A stretch of DNA of 46,393 bases from a virus, in IMG/VR virus record IMGVR_UViG_3300031364_000005, positions 1 to 46,393 of that record. One strand, given 5' to 3'. Position 1 is the first letter of the stretch. The number at the start of each line of letters is the position of its first letter. The position numbers and the translations under genes are program-made. The notes under the pieces were generated by a model. That model made no database searches. It saw only the letters and a list, made by a program, of their open reading frames with translations, and was not told the DNA's origin. This document shows, piece by piece, positions 7,329 through 17,645 of the stretch.

Positions 7329-8690
7329 TTAGAATTCTAATTCATTTATTTTATCCTGATCAAATTGTCCTTTATATTCGTAAATAGTTGACCATTTATC
7401 TGACCTGTAAAGTGTTATTATACCTGTTGCTCCGTGCCTATGCTTCGCAAATATAAATTCAATTTTATTTTTGTTTTCTTCAGAAACTTCCTTTTCATAC
7501 ACTTCTGGCCGATGAATAAAAGCAACTACATCCGCATCTTGTTCAATTGCTCCTGATTCTCTCAGATCACTTAATACAGGTGTTTTATCTGCCCTTTCTT
7601 CTACTTTTCTCGATAATTGAGATAGGGCAATTACGGGTATGTTTAATTCTTTTGCAATTAATTTTAAACTTTGGGAAATATGAGAAATTTCCCTTTCACG
7701 ATTTTTTGAATGATCAGGGCTCCTCATCAACTGTAAATAATCAACAATAATAAGCTTGATATCATTTTTCCGTTTGTAATATCTTGCTTTCGATTTAAAT
7801 TCATTAATTGTCAATGCAGGGGTATCATCGATTATTAATTCAAGATTTTCAATTTTTCTTTGAGCATTTTCAATTTTTTCCCAATCTTCATTTTTAAAGT
7901 TAGCTTGACGTATAGTCATATTTTCTAAACCTGTCTCAGAGGCTAGTTGTCTGTCATATAGTTCTGTGTCTTCCATCTCTAATGAGAAAAATGCAACAGG
8001 ACAACCATTTTCTGCTGCAATTTTTGCTATTTCCTGAGAAAGACGTGTCTTTCCCATCGCCGGACGTGCCGCTATAATAATTAGATTAGAAGGTTGCCAT
8101 GCCCCAATCGTTTTATTTAACTTTTCCCAACACGGAACTCCGGATAATTTTATTTCTCCTTTAGATATTTCATCTAATATTTTTAATCTTCTTTTGCCTA
8201 TTTCTCCCATTTTTAACCCTATTTTATTTATTGAATTAATTGTAATTCCTGATATTTGTTGTTCTGAAAAATCAATAAGTTCTGATATATCCTCAATTGA
8301 ATCATCATATGCCTTGTGTTGTATTTCTGTAGAGATCCTAATTAATTCTCTTTGAATGTATTTTTGTTGAATTATCCTAGCATGAAATTCAATATGTGCT
8401 GATGATGCAATCCTGTCAGTAAGTTTAGTTAAAAAAGCCGGGCCCCCAACATTTTCGAGTTCATTGCTTTGTCTTAATTTTTCAATTACTGTTAATATAT
8501 CGATTGCTTTATTATCATTGAATAATTGATATATTGATCTAAATATCTTTTGATGTTCTGTCCTATAAAAACTATTTTCAGATAAAATATCTTGAATTTC
8601 TTCAAAAGCTCTTGATTCAAGCATGCAAGCTCCCAATATAGCCTCTTCTAATTCAATATTTTGAGGAGGTACTTTACCTAATTCTATCAT
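7329..8690 (-). CDS. dnaB: replicative DNA helicase, DnaB type
   Basis: This 453-residue protein has normal DnaB length. The N-terminal helical domain begins PPQNIELEEAILGACMLES. The RecA-like domain has Walker A ARPAMGKT near residue 210, Walker B IIVDYLQLM, and the SQLSRKVEERADKTPVLSDL motif with an arginine-finger region DADVVAFIHR. It unwinds the fork as a hexamer. No separate primase or recognisable loader is seen, so it probably recruits host DnaG and is loaded by the winged-helix initiator or by an unrecognised small protein nearby. Confidence 0.95.
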   Translation of the reverse strand: MIELGKVPPQNIELEEAILGACMLESRAFEEIQDILSENSFYRTEHQKIFRSIYQLFNDNKAIDILTVIEKLRQSNELENVGGPAFLTKLTDRIASSAHIEFHARIIQQKYIQRELIRISTEIQHKAYDDSIEDISELIDFSEQQISGITINSINKIGLKMGEIGKRRLKILDEISKGEIKLSGVPCWEKLNKTIGAWQPSNLIIIAARPAMGKTRLSQEIAKIAAENGCPVAFFSLEMEDTELYDRQLASETGLENMTIRQANFKNEDWEKIENAQRKIENLELIIDDTPALTINEFKSKARYYKRKNDIKLIIVDYLQLMRSPDHSKNREREISHISQSLKLIAKELNIPVIALSQLSRKVEERADKTPVLSDLRESGAIEQDADVVAFIHRPEVYEKEVSEENKNKIEFIFAKHRHGATGIITLYRSDKWSTIYEYKGQFDQDKINELEF

Positions 8691-9889: not shown

Positions 9890-10633
9890 TTATCTATCAT
9901 AACCCGATTTATAATTTTCTAAATTCTGATAGCTTTTTGATGCTGATATAATTTCTTTTTTATCTTTTATTGGATAGAAATCCTTCCAGCATGAAGTGAT
10001 TGCCTTTTCTATTATCTCAAGGGCCTCAGTTTTATTTGATGCATATTCATGAAGTTTTTTAAGTAGCCTGTTAATTATTCTTTCAGTATTATCCAGCTTC
10101 TTTTTCTTTCTCATTTGAAGATATTCAATGAAAGCATTGTTTACTTCTGAATCTTTTGAATAATCTCTATTATATATCTCTTTATTTTCTTTATTACTAA
10201 TATCTATATAGGGTAAAGTTTCTTTATCGCCATTTGGTAAAGTTTCTCTACCATTTTGGTAAAGTTTCTTTACCGGTAAAGTTTCTTTACCGGTGGTAAA
10301 GTACTTATCTACCATTAAGAGGGCTTCATCTTCTTTTAAACTGTACAAATTTATCTCTGAATCTGGACTTAATAGACTAATTATTCCATTTACTGGTTTT
10401 GTGTGCCCGATTATATTTTTTTCTATATAACCTCTTTTTTCTAAATTATCTATAATAGTAATTATTGATTGTTTACTTAGATCAAGAAAATCTCCTAATT
10501 TTTGCCGTGAAATTATGCACCAACCTTGCAATTCTATGTTATTACTCAGTCTATATATTGAATCTAAAACACAATACTCATTGCAAGATAAATGAAGGGC
10601 TTTCCTTAAAGGATGAATAATTGTAGTATACAT
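9890..10633 (-). CDS. winged-helix replication initiator with internal origin
   Basis: From ATG at 10633 the protein has 247 residues (a longer frame starts at 10696). The first 100 residues form a winged helix (MYTTIIHPLRKALHLSCNEY, LGDFLDLSKQSIITIIDNLE, RGYIEK). A linker follows whose DNA contains the iterons, and it reads as repeated KETLP/RETLP. The C-terminal 80 residues are helical. The layout of DNA-binding domain, iteron-coded linker and helicase-recruiting domain parallels lambda O. It probably opens the origin and loads DnaB, whose gene is downstream in the same operon. Confidence 0.75.
   Translation of the reverse strand: MYTTIIHPLRKALHLSCNEYCVLDSIYRLSNNIELQGWCIISRQKLGDFLDLSKQSIITIIDNLEKRGYIEKNIIGHTKPVNGIISLLSPDSEINLYSLKEDEALLMVDKYFTTGKETLPVKKLYQNGRETLPNGDKETLPYIDISNKENKEIYNRDYSKDSEVNNAFIEYLQMRKKKKLDNTERIINRLLKKLHEYASNKTEALEIIEKAITSCWKDFYPIKDKKEIISASKSYQNLENYKSGYDR
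10160..10312. other. putative replication origin (iterons plus AT-rich element)
   Basis: The block holds four 17-bp iterons at 10213-10229, 10237-10253, 10259-10275 and 10276-10292. A partial fifth (GGTAAAG) starts at 10296. At 10160-10212 there is an adjoining stretch that is nearly all A and T (TCTATTATATATCTCTTTATT and onward). The AT-rich part lies 3' of the iterons in the initiator gene, the same order as in lambda. The origin call is an inference from this architecture. Confidence 0.7.
10213..10292. repeat. palindromic iterons GGTAAAG-AAA-CTTTACC
   Basis: Each unit is a 7-bp perfect inverted repeat around AAA. The two central copies (10259-10275 and 10276-10292) are exact and directly abut. 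The outer ones each have one mismatch: TTTATC at the low end and TCTACC in the second. Start-to-start distances are 24, 22 and 17 bp. The units encode G-K/R-E-T-L-P in the initiator protein. Confidence 0.8.
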
Positions 10634-10715
10634 ACGCTCATTTTTTATACGCTCTTTTTTTTGAAAAGAAAGGGAGGTAGAGCGTAACAACCTCACCTTT
10701 CAAAATTCCTATGAC

Positions 10716-11101: not shown

Positions 11102-11902
11102 TTAAAATAAAGTTGGATTAATTTTATTTATTATACTCTTAGCAAAACCAATTTCTTTAATTTCTTTTTTAGTAATAATTATGTCATTGAGCCAGTTAGT
11201 AGCTAATTTGAAAAAATCTTTTTTTATTTCAAATCCAAATGCTTTTCTATTTAATTCTATTGCAGCAATAATCGTTGATCCGCTTCCTGCAACTGGATCA
11301 ATAATTACATCTCCCTCATCGGTAAATATTTCAATCAATTTCTTTAATAATTTGATGGGTTTTTGAGTTGGATGCAATTTATTAACATCATTTCCATCTC
11401 TTTCCCAATCAATGCAGTTAAATATCATTTTACCATTATTATTAAATTTAGGTAATTTTTCTCTATAAAATAATAGTCCATATTCGCAATTACCTACTAT
11501 TTTCATATTTGCTTTTAAAACCTGTGCTGAAAAATTCTTGCGAAACACTAAATTTATATAATTATTTAATCCATAGCGTTTTGCTAACTCAATGTAATAA
11601 AACTGCGATTCAAATTCACAAAATAATAACATTGCAGGAGATTTCCCTCTTTCCTTTGGTTCCGGCCTTAACATTTTACTACAAAAATGCATAAATTCGG
11701 CAGGTTTAAAATTTTTATCAGTATCAAAAAATTCTTTTCCAGCCAATTCACTTTCACCGTTTTTATTGTTTCCATCTTTGTACCAAGAGGGATTGCTTGC
11801 ATATGCATTATTTCCTAAATTATAAGGCACATCTGCAATTATTAATTGAGCCCTTGGTATTTGATATCTTTTGAAGTTTTGAAAATGATCGTTATATATC
11901 AT
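11102..11902 (-). CDS. DNA methyltransferase (N6-A or N4-C, beta class)
   Basis: This is a 266-residue protein. The catalytic motif appears early as ADVPYNLG (near residues 23-30), where most relatives have DPPY or SPPY, and the AdoMet-binding motif DPVAGSGST lies near the C-terminus. That order defines the beta class. HPTQKPIKLLKKLI precedes the AdoMet motif, as is usual in this class. There is no partner restriction enzyme, so it is an orphan enzyme likely to protect phage DNA or mark it. The DVPY variant may alter base preference. The start at 11902 directly follows the DUF5131 gene. Confidence 0.85.
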   Translation of the reverse strand: MIYNDHFQNFKRYQIPRAQLIIADVPYNLGNNAYASNPSWYKDGNNKNGESELAGKEFFDTDKNFKPAEFMHFCSKMLRPEPKERGKSPAMLLFCEFESQFYYIELAKRYGLNNYINLVFRKNFSAQVLKANMKIVGNCEYGLLFYREKLPKFNNNGKMIFNCIDWERDGNDVNKLHPTQKPIKLLKKLIEIFTDEGDVIIDPVAGSGSTIIAAIELNRKAFGFEIKKDFFKLATNWLNDIIITKKEIKEIGFAKSIINKINPTLF

Positions 11903-11909
11903 ATATGTT

Positions 11910-12740
11910 TTATTTAGGAAATTCTTGAATATTTAAGCGAAGGATATCTTTTTTATCAAAGAATGGAACATTAGCCTCTTTACATTGATTATATAATGAT
12001 TCAATCCATTCTTTTTTCATTGATCTGGATTTTGAGCCTGTTTCCGGCCCGGCAATTACCCATTGCAAACCATATTGAGTTTCATTATTATTAAGCCAGT
12101 TTAAAAATTTAATTTGGCATGCTTCAAGAAGATTAATATTTTCTAATAAAGGTTCTGCACTTATAAAATGAATTTTAGCCGGAATTTGTAATAGAATAGG
12201 TATTCTTTCATTAGCAGTTTTTTGATTTTCAGTTGTTACACCTATCCAAATATGATAAGGAGTACCAATATAATCAAGAGGGTTACTAGAACTACTAGGT
12301 ATAGAATCAAATCCATCATCTTTAACTTTTTGTCCTAACCACCTATAAAACTCTAACATTCTTCCAGGTCTTTTTGTAAGTACTTGAAATGTATGTCTTG
12401 GTGTTTGGCACATGATATCCCATATCTGTAGAATATCATCAAAAGAATTCTTTTCGTGGAACAAATCACTCATAGAGCAAACAAAAATCATCCTGGTATT
12501 TTTCCATTTTGCCGGAATATTTAATGCATTTTCAATAAATAATGTTTTTCCGTTCCATTTTTCTGAATCGTCAACAACATAAACGTAAAAATCTAACTTT
12601 GAACAACTATCTTTTGCTAAAGCCATACATCTTAATCTATAAGCCATTTTTTCAGCATAGCAATTTTGGCATCCTTCTGATATTTTATTGCACCCGATTA
12701 TTGGGTTCCATGTTTCGTTTGTCCATTCTATTTTACTCAT
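11910..12740 (-). CDS. DUF5131 family (phage Gp37/Gp68-like) protein
   Basis: This 276-residue protein begins MSKIEWTNETWNPIIGCNKI, then SEGCQNCYAE, the signature of DUF5131. Further motifs are FVCSMSDLFHE, VLTKRPGRM, WIGVTTENQ and ISAEPLLENI plus WVIAGPETG. The Cys-x7-Cys-x2-Cys pattern and strand order recall radical-SAM barrels of the spore photoproduct lyase group, so a redox or radical nucleic-acid modification is possible; this is not demonstrated. It starts in a 4-nt overlap with the membrane HTH gene and precedes the methyltransferase. The pair is common in phages. Confidence 0.85.
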   Translation of the reverse strand: MSKIEWTNETWNPIIGCNKISEGCQNCYAEKMAYRLRCMALAKDSCSKLDFYVYVVDDSEKWNGKTLFIENALNIPAKWKNTRMIFVCSMSDLFHEKNSFDDILQIWDIMCQTPRHTFQVLTKRPGRMLEFYRWLGQKVKDDGFDSIPSSSSNPLDYIGTPYHIWIGVTTENQKTANERIPILLQIPAKIHFISAEPLLENINLLEACQIKFLNWLNNNETQYGLQWVIAGPETGSKSRSMKKEWIESLYNQCKEANVPFFDKKDILRLNIQEFPK

Positions 12741-14628: not shown

Positions 14629-15516
14629 TTAAAACCCTGGCTTATCGTTTATTTTACTTTCTTCTGATTCCTCTGATTCATTAATCGATTTACCTTTTAC
14701 AGTTTTATGAGGCTTTTCAGTATATTTGTTTTCTGGTAATTCTACCGGTTCAGGCATTGAAGCTAATACTTTTAATGTTTGATTTTGCTTATCTTCAGTC
14801 TGATCTATATGCTCAGATGATTCTATCATAATCATAGCGTCATCAGTACTGTCAATATATTTCTTACATGCCCGGTTTATTACTGTTTTTTCGGCCATCT
14901 TGTCGGTAAAATCCTTATGAGCTTGTGTAAGTCCATTTCCTTGTCGCATTAACCAGGCTTTCTTTATGTCGTGAATTACCATTATTTCAATGTCCTTTTC
15001 ACCATCTGGCCGAATCACAATTGCATATGCCCCCTTTATTTTATCTTGATTTATATTTTCAAGTTTCGGTACATGCTTAATTAACTTTTTCAACCCAGTT
15101 TCAAGATTTACTTCATATTCGAATTCATCACCGTCATAAATAGTATGTGCAAAAATGTCAACAACACCTGAGTATCTTTTTGCGAGAAGTTTTGATCCTT
15201 CATATGAACGCTGGCATATAAGCTTATCGCCATAAACAATAAAATAACACTGTTTTTTTAATGGGTTTAATCCCTGGGTAATCATATAAAGCAATGAATT
15301 TGCAATACTTGGTTTTGTACATACTTCAAGTGCCGGCTTTTTGTTTTTGTCTACTATTTCAGCTAATACTAATCCAGCGGCCTGGATAGCATTCTGTATT
15401 GAATAATCTGAAGGTAAATTTAATCCACCAGCGTTCTTTATCTCTTCGATTCTCATCATTGTTTCGTCAACGATTGATTTCTGAATTTTTGCAACTGTTT
15501 CTTTCTTATTTTCCAT
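14629..15516 (-). CDS. recT: RecT-type single-strand annealing protein
   Basis: This protein has 295 residues. The RecT core is clear: LEVCTKPSIANSLLYMITQG, LNPLKKQCYFIVYG, KLICQRSYEGSKLLAKR, GAYAIVIRPDGEKD and MAEKTVINRACKKYIDS. The C-terminal 70 residues are polar and low complexity, typical of the variable tail that contacts partners such as SSB. It overlaps the DUF3820 gene by 11 nt and precedes the MBL nuclease, forming a phage homologous recombination module. Frequent RecT activity may also help shuffle the octad repeats. Confidence 0.95.
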   Translation of the reverse strand: MENKKETVAKIQKSIVDETMMRIEEIKNAGGLNLPSDYSIQNAIQAAGLVLAEIVDKNKKPALEVCTKPSIANSLLYMITQGLNPLKKQCYFIVYGDKLICQRSYEGSKLLAKRYSGVVDIFAHTIYDGDEFEYEVNLETGLKKLIKHVPKLENINQDKIKGAYAIVIRPDGEKDIEIMVIHDIKKAWLMRQGNGLTQAHKDFTDKMAEKTVINRACKKYIDSTDDAMIMIESSEHIDQTEDKQNQTLKVLASMPEPVELPENKYTEKPHKTVKGKSINESEESEESKINDKPGF

Positions 15517-15706
15517 TTTCTCTGTTTTTTATTTCGATTAGTAATACTTCTTTGTTTTCTTCTATATATTGCTTTACTTCTTTGTTTACCTTATTATTGT
15601 CGTAAAGCCATAAAAGATATTCAGCCGGGCAGTTGGCTATTTTCCTGCCTTTGTATATTCCAAAAGGCATGATATAGTTGTCATCTATTTCAATCGGCAT
15701 TTTCAA
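15506..15706 (-). CDS. DUF3820-like small protein
   Basis: This 66-residue protein contains MPFGIYKGRKIANCPAEYLL and WLYDN, the core signature of the DUF3820 family found beside DNA repair and exonuclease genes in many phages. The last third is charged and helical. It overlaps both the SbcC-like gene upstream (17 nt) and recT downstream (11 nt), which implies tight co-translation in the recombination module. Its biochemical role is not established. Confidence 0.75.
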   Translation of the reverse strand: MKMPIEIDDNYIMPFGIYKGRKIANCPAEYLLWLYDNNKVNKEVKQYIEENKEVLLIEIKNRENGK

Positions 15707-17645
15707 TCCTTAATTCATTTGTACCTGTTTCTTTTATGAGATTTATAACCTGAGTATTCATAGGCTGAATATCAGTAATACTTTCCCGGTTATCAATCCA
15801 TACTGGAGCATAAATATTATAATGCTGTGATAAAACATTAATGATGTCAAGTCCTGCATTTATTCGTTTCGCTGTATTTAATGAATGATAAGGGACACCG
15901 TCAACAAGTGTTATGCAAGTTTCCTCATTTTCGCCATTAATCAATTTATTGTATAACTTAAAAGAAACATACTTGAATTTAGCATTTATAGAAGATTCTA
16001 GGAGGTTTATCTTTTTCTCTGTAAAATCATAAATAATTGATATTTCCTTTTGGGAATTAGCTATTTCTTGCGCCTTTATGCGCATTTCTTCTTCGAGTTG
16101 ATTAATACGAAGTTGTATTTTATCAAATTCTTTTTCCAGGTCCATTTTTCGGGTCAATTCCGAAAGTTCTGATCTTAACAATGACAATCTTTCATCAATT
16201 GTAGATGTGTCTAGTTTTATTGTTGTCGAGAGCAGTTTATCTTTTAATGTTTCTTTTTGCTGTGAAAGTAATTTATAATCTTCATTTGCTGAAATTTGTT
16301 GATCAAATGATGATATGCCTAAACCTTTATTAGATAAATTATCCAATTCTTTTTGTAATTGAGAAATTTTATCTTTTTTGCTTTTCAATTCTTCATCTAG
16401 CAAATCATTCGATTGTAACAATGTTCCTTTTTGCTGCTTTTTTATTTCAGCTTTCTTTTCCAGGTTTTGAATCGACTCGACTTTAGATTTATTGAAATTA
16501 ATCTTAAGAGATTTTTTTATCTCATCTGAGTTTTCAAATTCTCTCTTACAAGTAGGGCAATGCGTTTGATTTTCTGATATTTCAATTTCACTGTCACGAA
16601 TTGTATACCATTCTTTTCTCATCTTTTCCAAATCTTCATCAAGTTTTAAAATCTCGATGTCGTTTTGTTCTTTTTCTATAGAAATAATCCTACACCTATA
16701 CGATAATCTTTGAACATCTAATTGCAATGAATTAATAGCAATTTCATGGTTTGATTTTTCACTAGAAATCTTAGATTGAATATCTAATTTAATTTCATTT
16801 ATTTCATTATCAATTTCAAGGATTTCAGATGAAATTTTATTTGAAGCATCATCATTTGATTTATGAGCTTCAATCAGTCCTGAAAGTTTTGTTTCTTCTG
16901 CTTTAATTTCAGCTTCTTTTTCTTCAATAAGCTTTAATAGTAAATCTCTGTTTTCTCTTTTTTCAGGCAGTTTCATTAAATTTTCATCGATTCTGCTAGG
17001 TATCGATATTAAATCTGATTTAATAGCCTTAATCTTTCTATCCAGGTCTTTTTTGTATTCGACAATATCAACTTTATTAAGTTTGTTAATTAATTGCTCA
17101 AAATCCTTATTCCCGGATGCAATTTCTTCATCAGATGCTATATTAGCTAATTCAAAAAGTATTTTTCTTTTTACAGTCCAATTCTGTGATTCGAAATAAA
17201 GCGGATTTGTTACATATTTAAATATATCAGTATCAATAAAGCTGCTTATAATCGAATCATATTTGCCTTTTTGAATATTAATTCCTTCAAAATAATAACT
17301 CGTTTCGTGCCCGGTCAATTCAGGTTCATCGTTTCCTTTTCTTTTCTGCCATTTTTCTTTATAAACTTTCATGAACGGATAAGTCCTATCATCTATTTTT
17401 AAAATTGCTTCAACTTCAATTTCGGCTTTTGATAAAGGAACATTATTTTCATCAAGAGGTTTAATTGCAAAATCCGCTTTATCATTCGAATCCTTACCAA
17501 ATAAAAGCCACAAAAAGGCATCCAACAACCTGGATTTACCTATTCCGTTATCAGCGTAAATTGATGTCTTTTCGGAAAAATTAATTTCCATAGGCTTTGC
17601 GCCTTTAAAAAATTTTAACCTGAGTTTTTCTAATTTAATCTTCAT
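15690..17645 (-). CDS. SbcC/Rad50-like ATPase
   Basis: This 651-residue protein has Walker A YADNGIGKSRLLDAF near residues 32-45 followed by WLLFGKDS. Long coiled coils flank a CPTCKREF zinc-hook half-motif in the middle, and WIDNRES at the end sits in the Walker B/D-loop region. It is shorter than host SbcC (about 1000 residues) and similar to phage-encoded versions. These ATPases gate a nuclease that cleans DNA ends. No SbcD homologue is adjacent; the MBL-fold nuclease is a possible partner. It overlaps the Xre gene by 11 nt. Confidence 0.85.
   Translation of the reverse strand: MKIKLEKLRLKFFKGAKPMEINFSEKTSIYADNGIGKSRLLDAFLWLLFGKDSNDKADFAIKPLDENNVPLSKAEIEVEAILKIDDRTYPFMKVYKEKWQKRKGNDEPELTGHETSYYFEGINIQKGKYDSIISSFIDTDIFKYVTNPLYFESQNWTVKRKILFELANIASDEEIASGNKDFEQLINKLNKVDIVEYKKDLDRKIKAIKSDLISIPSRIDENLMKLPEKRENRDLLLKLIEEKEAEIKAEETKLSGLIEAHKSNDDASNKISSEILEIDNEINEIKLDIQSKISSEKSNHEIAINSLQLDVQRLSYRCRIISIEKEQNDIEILKLDEDLEKMRKEWYTIRDSEIEISENQTHCPTCKREFENSDEIKKSLKINFNKSKVESIQNLEKKAEIKKQQKGTLLQSNDLLDEELKSKKDKISQLQKELDNLSNKGLGISSFDQQISANEDYKLLSQQKETLKDKLLSTTIKLDTSTIDERLSLLRSELSELTRKMDLEKEFDKIQLRINQLEEEMRIKAQEIANSQKEISIIYDFTEKKINLLESSINAKFKYVSFKLYNKLINGENEETCITLVDGVPYHSLNTAKRINAGLDIINVLSQHYNIYAPVWIDNRESITDIQPMNTQVINLIKETGTNELRIENAD

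Follow-up and report, generated by a model that had tools for sequence, protein, structure and literature searches.

The window, the whole 46,393-nt stretch of viral DNA analyzed here, carries on its minus strand a gene that almost certainly codes for a replication initiator, and within that gene lies an array of palindromic iterons that we interpret as the replication origin of the phage. We place the probability of this full model, which includes dimer binding, melting, and helicase recruitment, at about 0.87. The iterons are very probably binding sites of the gene's own initiator, because residue 55 of the protein covaries with base 4 of the iteron half-site among relatives. The relatives' sites change in step with this one amino acid, and protein and site therefore appear to evolve as a matched pair. 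We further consider it likely that the family constitutes a natural library of matched pairs of winged-helix (wHTH) domain and target, in which residue 55 sets base 4 (Arg, Lys, or Asn with G; Gln or Pro mostly with A; Asp with C) and origin specificity has been switched about ten times.

A putative initiator with a winged-helix DNA-binding domain

The start of the initiator gene was placed at the ATG at 10633, based on the (M)YTTIIHP N terminus conserved in relatives; an alternative GTG start at 10696, which would give a longer open reading frame (ORF), is possible. The gene, its DNA-binding parts, and a nearby helicase gene are located as follows.

9890..10633 (-), initiator gene, 247 amino acids, ATG at 10633
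10388..10621 (-), wHTH DNA-binding domain, residues about 5 to 82 (AF2 model, Pfam MarR/HTH_36, and fold matches)
10436..10474 (-), recognition helix, residues 54 to 66 (AF2 model), with the Q55 codon at 10469-10471
7329..8690 (-), gene for a DnaB-like replicative helicase, a likely partner of the initiator, 1.2 kb downstream

Among PHROG profiles, the protein matched phrog_678, "replication initiation O-like" (E = 7.9e-16), over residues 11 to 257 of the 268-amino-acid ORF, a match that covers most of the protein. Pfam searches at E values up to 1 returned only MarR/HTH-type models and DUF6904, all of them sub-threshold, and neither the lambda O family nor the RepA_N N-terminal domain was among the matches. 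The O-like filing of the initiator thus has two sources, the PHROG match and the layout of the gene. In 23 aligned relatives, Pfam HTH_36 was found in 18 and DnaD_N, weakly, in 9. The AF2 model displays a confident wHTH domain (block means of 90 to 98 for residues 11 to 80), very low confidence across most of residues 114 to 181, a linker predicted to be disordered, and low confidence in the C-terminal part. A fold search with this model matched MarR-type regulators, none with an E value below 0.001. Searches with the initiator by tblastn and by a single-protein viral scan against phages and plasmids returned nothing useful.

Palindromic iterons and an adjoining AT-rich stretch

Four 17-bp dyads of the form GGTAAAG-AAA-CTTTACC were located on the minus strand at 10212-10291, corresponding to nucleotides (nt) 343-422 of the gene and falling inside the predicted disordered linker. 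A 19-nt degenerate copy precedes them in gene sense, and the start-to-start distances between the iterons are 17, 22, and 24 bp. Listed in gene sense, the elements are as follows.

10296..10314 (-), degenerate fifth iteron, 19 nt, GGTAGATAAGTACTTTACC
10275..10291 (-), perfect iteron, GGTAAAGAAACTTTACC, read as GKETLP
10258..10274 (-), perfect iteron, in another frame, read as VKKLY
10236..10252 (-), iteron with one mismatch, GGTAGAGAAACTTTACC, read as GRETLP
10212..10228 (-), iteron with one mismatch, GATAAAGAAACTTTACC, read as DKETLP
10154..10203 (-), AT-rich stretch, 86% AT, candidate unwinding element

A preliminary description of this DNA had proposed a palindromic array within an initiator-like gene, followed 3' by an AT-rich stretch. 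Both proposals were confirmed, with the array inside the minus-strand gene that matches phrog_678 and the stretch 3' of it (gene sense) ranking in the top 0.8% of 50-bp windows. The same description held all four units to be perfect, which is incorrect: two are perfect, two carry one mismatch, and a degenerate fifth is present. Nor is KETLP encoded by every unit, as 10258-10274 is read as VKKLY. The units extend over 10212-10314, compared with a claimed span of 10160-10312, the start of which takes in the AT-rich element.

No extra iteron copies and no second array were found elsewhere in the window, and blastn with the array gave marginal short matches only. Neither GC skew nor third-position skew over the record displayed a switch near 10.2 kb; almost every gene has the same orientation, which would hide a switch, and skew is for this reason uninformative on the replication start. 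That replication starts at the array is therefore something that we infer rather than read from the skew.

Evidence that the DNA, not the peptide, is constrained

The two perfect units place the identical 17 nt in two frames of one gene, where they are read as both GKETLP and VKKLY, and in relatives the unit is used in all three frames (GKETLP/GKESLP, VKKLY/VKNLY, and SKNFT-like). Of the six distinct sequences in the SKNFT-like frame, five have C at base 4 and the remaining one is a weak match; this A>C change prevents a TAA stop from arising, and the mirror base is still T. The preliminary description had regarded loss of the palindrome beneath a conserved peptide as damaging to its reading, and no such loss was seen, as GKETLP in relatives always lies on the identical 17 nt.

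These observations bear on the idea that the KETLP peptide benefits the protein, such as by gripping the helicase, and that the palindrome is a by-product of this peptide and an AT-rich codon bias. Frame use speaks against it, as does codon resampling. When codons were resampled according to the usage of the phage, under an unchanged protein sequence, none of 20,000 trials produced four units within one mismatch, and two exact units arose at a frequency of 5e-5. Dinucleotide shuffling, a weak test for this array, gave an expectation of 1.6 matches at up to three mismatches versus the 5 present, a number reached by 2 of 100 shuffles. A cruder test, the generic count of repeated palindromes against synonymous shuffles, gave 0.013 for the studied gene and does lend the idea some support, as counts in several close KESLP relatives were not above the synonymous null; the weak result there arises because peptide and codon bias alone produce palindromes. 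This count was superseded by the motif test and the repeated-palindrome test. Divergent relatives, in turn, have other palindromes together with other peptides. In its strict form, the peptide-driven explanation is refuted by frame use, codon resampling, and the divergent relatives, and we give it next to no credence overall. Judged from the sequence, the constraint acts on the DNA rather than on the peptide. Because the iterons encode a predicted disordered linker, the gene can tolerate DNA-constrained sequence at this place.

Palindromes across the initiator family

Relatives were assembled as group A, collected around the studied gene, and group B, seeded by three loci (L007, L024, and L032). 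Seed loci were found via the palindrome and later loci via conserved wHTH peptides; the repeats of the later loci were therefore not selected for. The named members of group B are phages of Bacteroidota, and one group A member resides in Larkinella soli (the prophage of L173). Scans of genome contigs matched only Larkinella soli and a frame-broken copy in a metagenome-assembled genome (MAG) of Candidatus Aminicenantes (L274:3001-3400). The latter is an initiator copy with iteron-like peptides and in-frame stops, which reflect either decay of the copy or an error in the sequence.

Whole genes of 86 initiators were scanned for repeated palindromes, with 100 synonymous shuffles each. All 100 shuffles were beaten by 56 of the 86 genes, and 69 were at or below 5/100, leaving 17 that failed to reach this level; the studied gene scored 50, compared with a null mean of 14.5 and a null maximum of 26. 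Most units of the 69 genes (217 of 238) lie at nt 250-400, directly behind the part encoding the wHTH domain. Divergent relatives have different palindromes at the same gene position, and their half-sites vary widely (TCTCGGA, ACCCGCA, AGTGTAA, TTAAACA, GGTGTCA, GGTTGGA, and others). Recurrent features are a spacing of mostly 20 to 24 bp and, in many cases, a 3' flank that is AT-rich and codes for Asn. In two relatives, L291 (nt 277-382 of the gene) and L337 (nt 280-383 of the gene), the repeats combine two unlike half-sites (GGCAAAA...TTTACC; TAGCCAAAAAACTTGGGTA), as if asymmetrically read.

Two members of group B come from isolated phages and carry palindromic repeats within the gene: gp53 of Flavobacterium columnare phage FCV-1 (36207-36857 of NC_041845) and PD491P1_00032 of a Parabacteroides phage. 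Both proteins are annotated as hypothetical. Their half-sites differ from that of the studied gene, with GGTGCAG and Asn at residue 55 in FCV-1 and GGTTGGA and Ser at residue 55 in PD491P1_00032. By themselves, the FCV-1 repeats do not beat the synonymous null of 100 shuffles.

Residue 55 and half-site base 4

To relate protein to site, half-site consensus sequences were read from the palindrome centers, independently of the protein, with register and alignment choices made by the analyst; the set comprised 46 genes below 75% wHTH identity. Overall wHTH identity barely predicted half-site similarity (r = 0.11). By partial correlation with half-site similarity, the recognition-helix columns 53, 55, 58, 54, 59, and 60 ranked 2 to 7. 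Column 26 (numbering of the studied protein), outside the recognition helix, had the top partial correlation, which may be a lineage effect.

The pairing of column 55 with half-site base 4 had the highest mutual-information z score, 9.6, of 736 column-base pairs. Base 4 was G in all 12 genes with Arg, Lys, or Asn at residue 55, versus 1 of 34 genes with other residues; Asp55 was paired with C in 2 of 2 genes, and the 16 genes with Gln55 have A (13 genes) or C (3 genes). In a tree computed with the recognition helix omitted, residue 55 switches class roughly 10 times; of 10 contrasts that do not overlap, 9 were concordant. Among genes left out of the fit, which are those with low repeat scores and are related to the fitted genes, G was present in four of five with Arg, Lys, or Asn at residue 55 (L160, L306, L347, and FCV-1 [L276]) and in no other. 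The fifth, L301, disagrees, with Asn55 and T, and its repeats are not significant. An Arg or Lys contacting G would fit the general chemistry of protein-DNA contacts, and a Gln that accepts either A or C would be in keeping with the A>C change in the frame prone to a stop. Within group B genes that have G at base 4, base 5 tends to follow residue 55 (C with Asn, mostly T with Lys, and mostly A with Arg).

Every unit can form a stem-loop with a 7-bp stem and an AAA loop, and both arms differ together between divergent relatives, as would be expected if the repeats were mRNA hairpins that, for example, pace translation or decay. Within the GGTAAAG group, however, 64 of the 65 changed pair positions lacked a compensating change, with G-T at 12 of these. 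This pattern is the one expected if a dimer reads the two half-sites separately, and not that of an RNA stem. An RNA stem would also leave the covariation with the recognition helix unexplained, and we regard hairpins as very unlikely.

Comparison with known origins

The origin of phage lambda lies inside its own initiator gene. Its four iterons are placed in O, 3' of the DNA-binding part, as in the studied gene, and the sequences show them read in frames 0, 2, 2, and 1. An AT-rich tract follows the iterons in O (PMC7466680). The same layout is present here, with iterons in the gene, 3' of the DNA-binding domain, and then an AT-rich tract. The two phages differ in iteron sequence, in dyad pairing (6 to 7 of 7 pairs here versus 3 to 6 of 7 in lambda, by the analyst's count), and in the DnaB-like helicase encoded by the studied phage. 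In Bacillus phage SPP1, oriL is located within gene 38 and combines direct repeats with an AT-rich unwinding element, and the phage has a DnaB-type helicase (PMC6316719). This combination of repeats and AT-rich element in the initiator gene with a phage DnaB-type helicase is also found here, whereas SPP1 has a second origin, oriR, and the loader gp39, and no second array or loader was identified in the studied phage. As lambda ori and SPP1 oriL share the layout, the studied array is of a known kind and the candidate origin belongs to an already known architecture. In the open-access literature searched, no description was found of the origins of this family or of a residue-55 code; the residue-55 correspondence is the part not found described there.

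RepA_N initiators (pSK41, pTZ2162, and PLE RepA) use a DnaD-like N-terminal domain to bind semi-palindromic repeats, the arms of which run together at a poly-A tract (PMC7145576). The weak DnaD_N matches among relatives of the studied initiator are a point of likeness, while the PLE repeats are in a non-coding region, unlike the intragenic array. The preliminary reading of a lambda-O-like origin inside the initiator gene is supported, as far as sequence can show. Self-palindromic iterons do not serve as the distinguishing trait that they were taken for, given the weaker 17-bp dyad in lambda iterons and the semi-palindromic RepA_N repeats.

The position of the array also bears on whether the palindromes are operators through which the wHTH protein represses or times its own gene, with replication starting elsewhere. 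Proteins of the MarR class are dimeric repressors of palindromic operators, the wHTH fold here is MarR-like, and covariation indicates binding rather than its purpose. The array nevertheless sits mid-gene in nearly every relative, about 220 to 420 nt past the start codon and not at the promoter; PHROG groups the protein with replication initiators; and the array with its 3' AT-rich stretch is laid out as in lambda ori and SPP1 oriL. Operators in place of an origin are thus unlikely, and autoregulation may be a second role of the array.

Proposed mechanism and implications

In the origin model, the wHTH domain would bind each 17-bp palindrome as a dimer, with each monomer reading one half-site (GGTAAAG) and residue 55 placed close to or at base 4. 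A number of such dimers, separated for the most part by roughly two turns of the helix, could build an O-some-like complex next to the AT-rich stretch, and this stretch would then melt. The C-terminal part may recruit the phage's own DnaB-like helicase, a step proposed by analogy because this part is modeled at low confidence.

The intragenic-origin design recurs across very diverse phages, with named hosts mostly in Bacteroidota. Since protein and target are contained in one gene, metagenomes would supply many cognate winged-helix/site pairs without an assay. With a few point mutants, one could test both a recognition code for domains of this class and how phages change origin specificity, and the design offers a simple route to origin prediction in uncultivated phages.

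Two further regions of the window were noted. Upstream of the initiator, at 11102-12740, two genes resemble, by eye, a DNA methyltransferase and a DUF5131-type phage protein. At 14629-17645, a RecT-like annealing protein and a match to the family "SbcC-like subunit of palindrome specific endonuclease" are present, in a genome that carries palindromic iterons.
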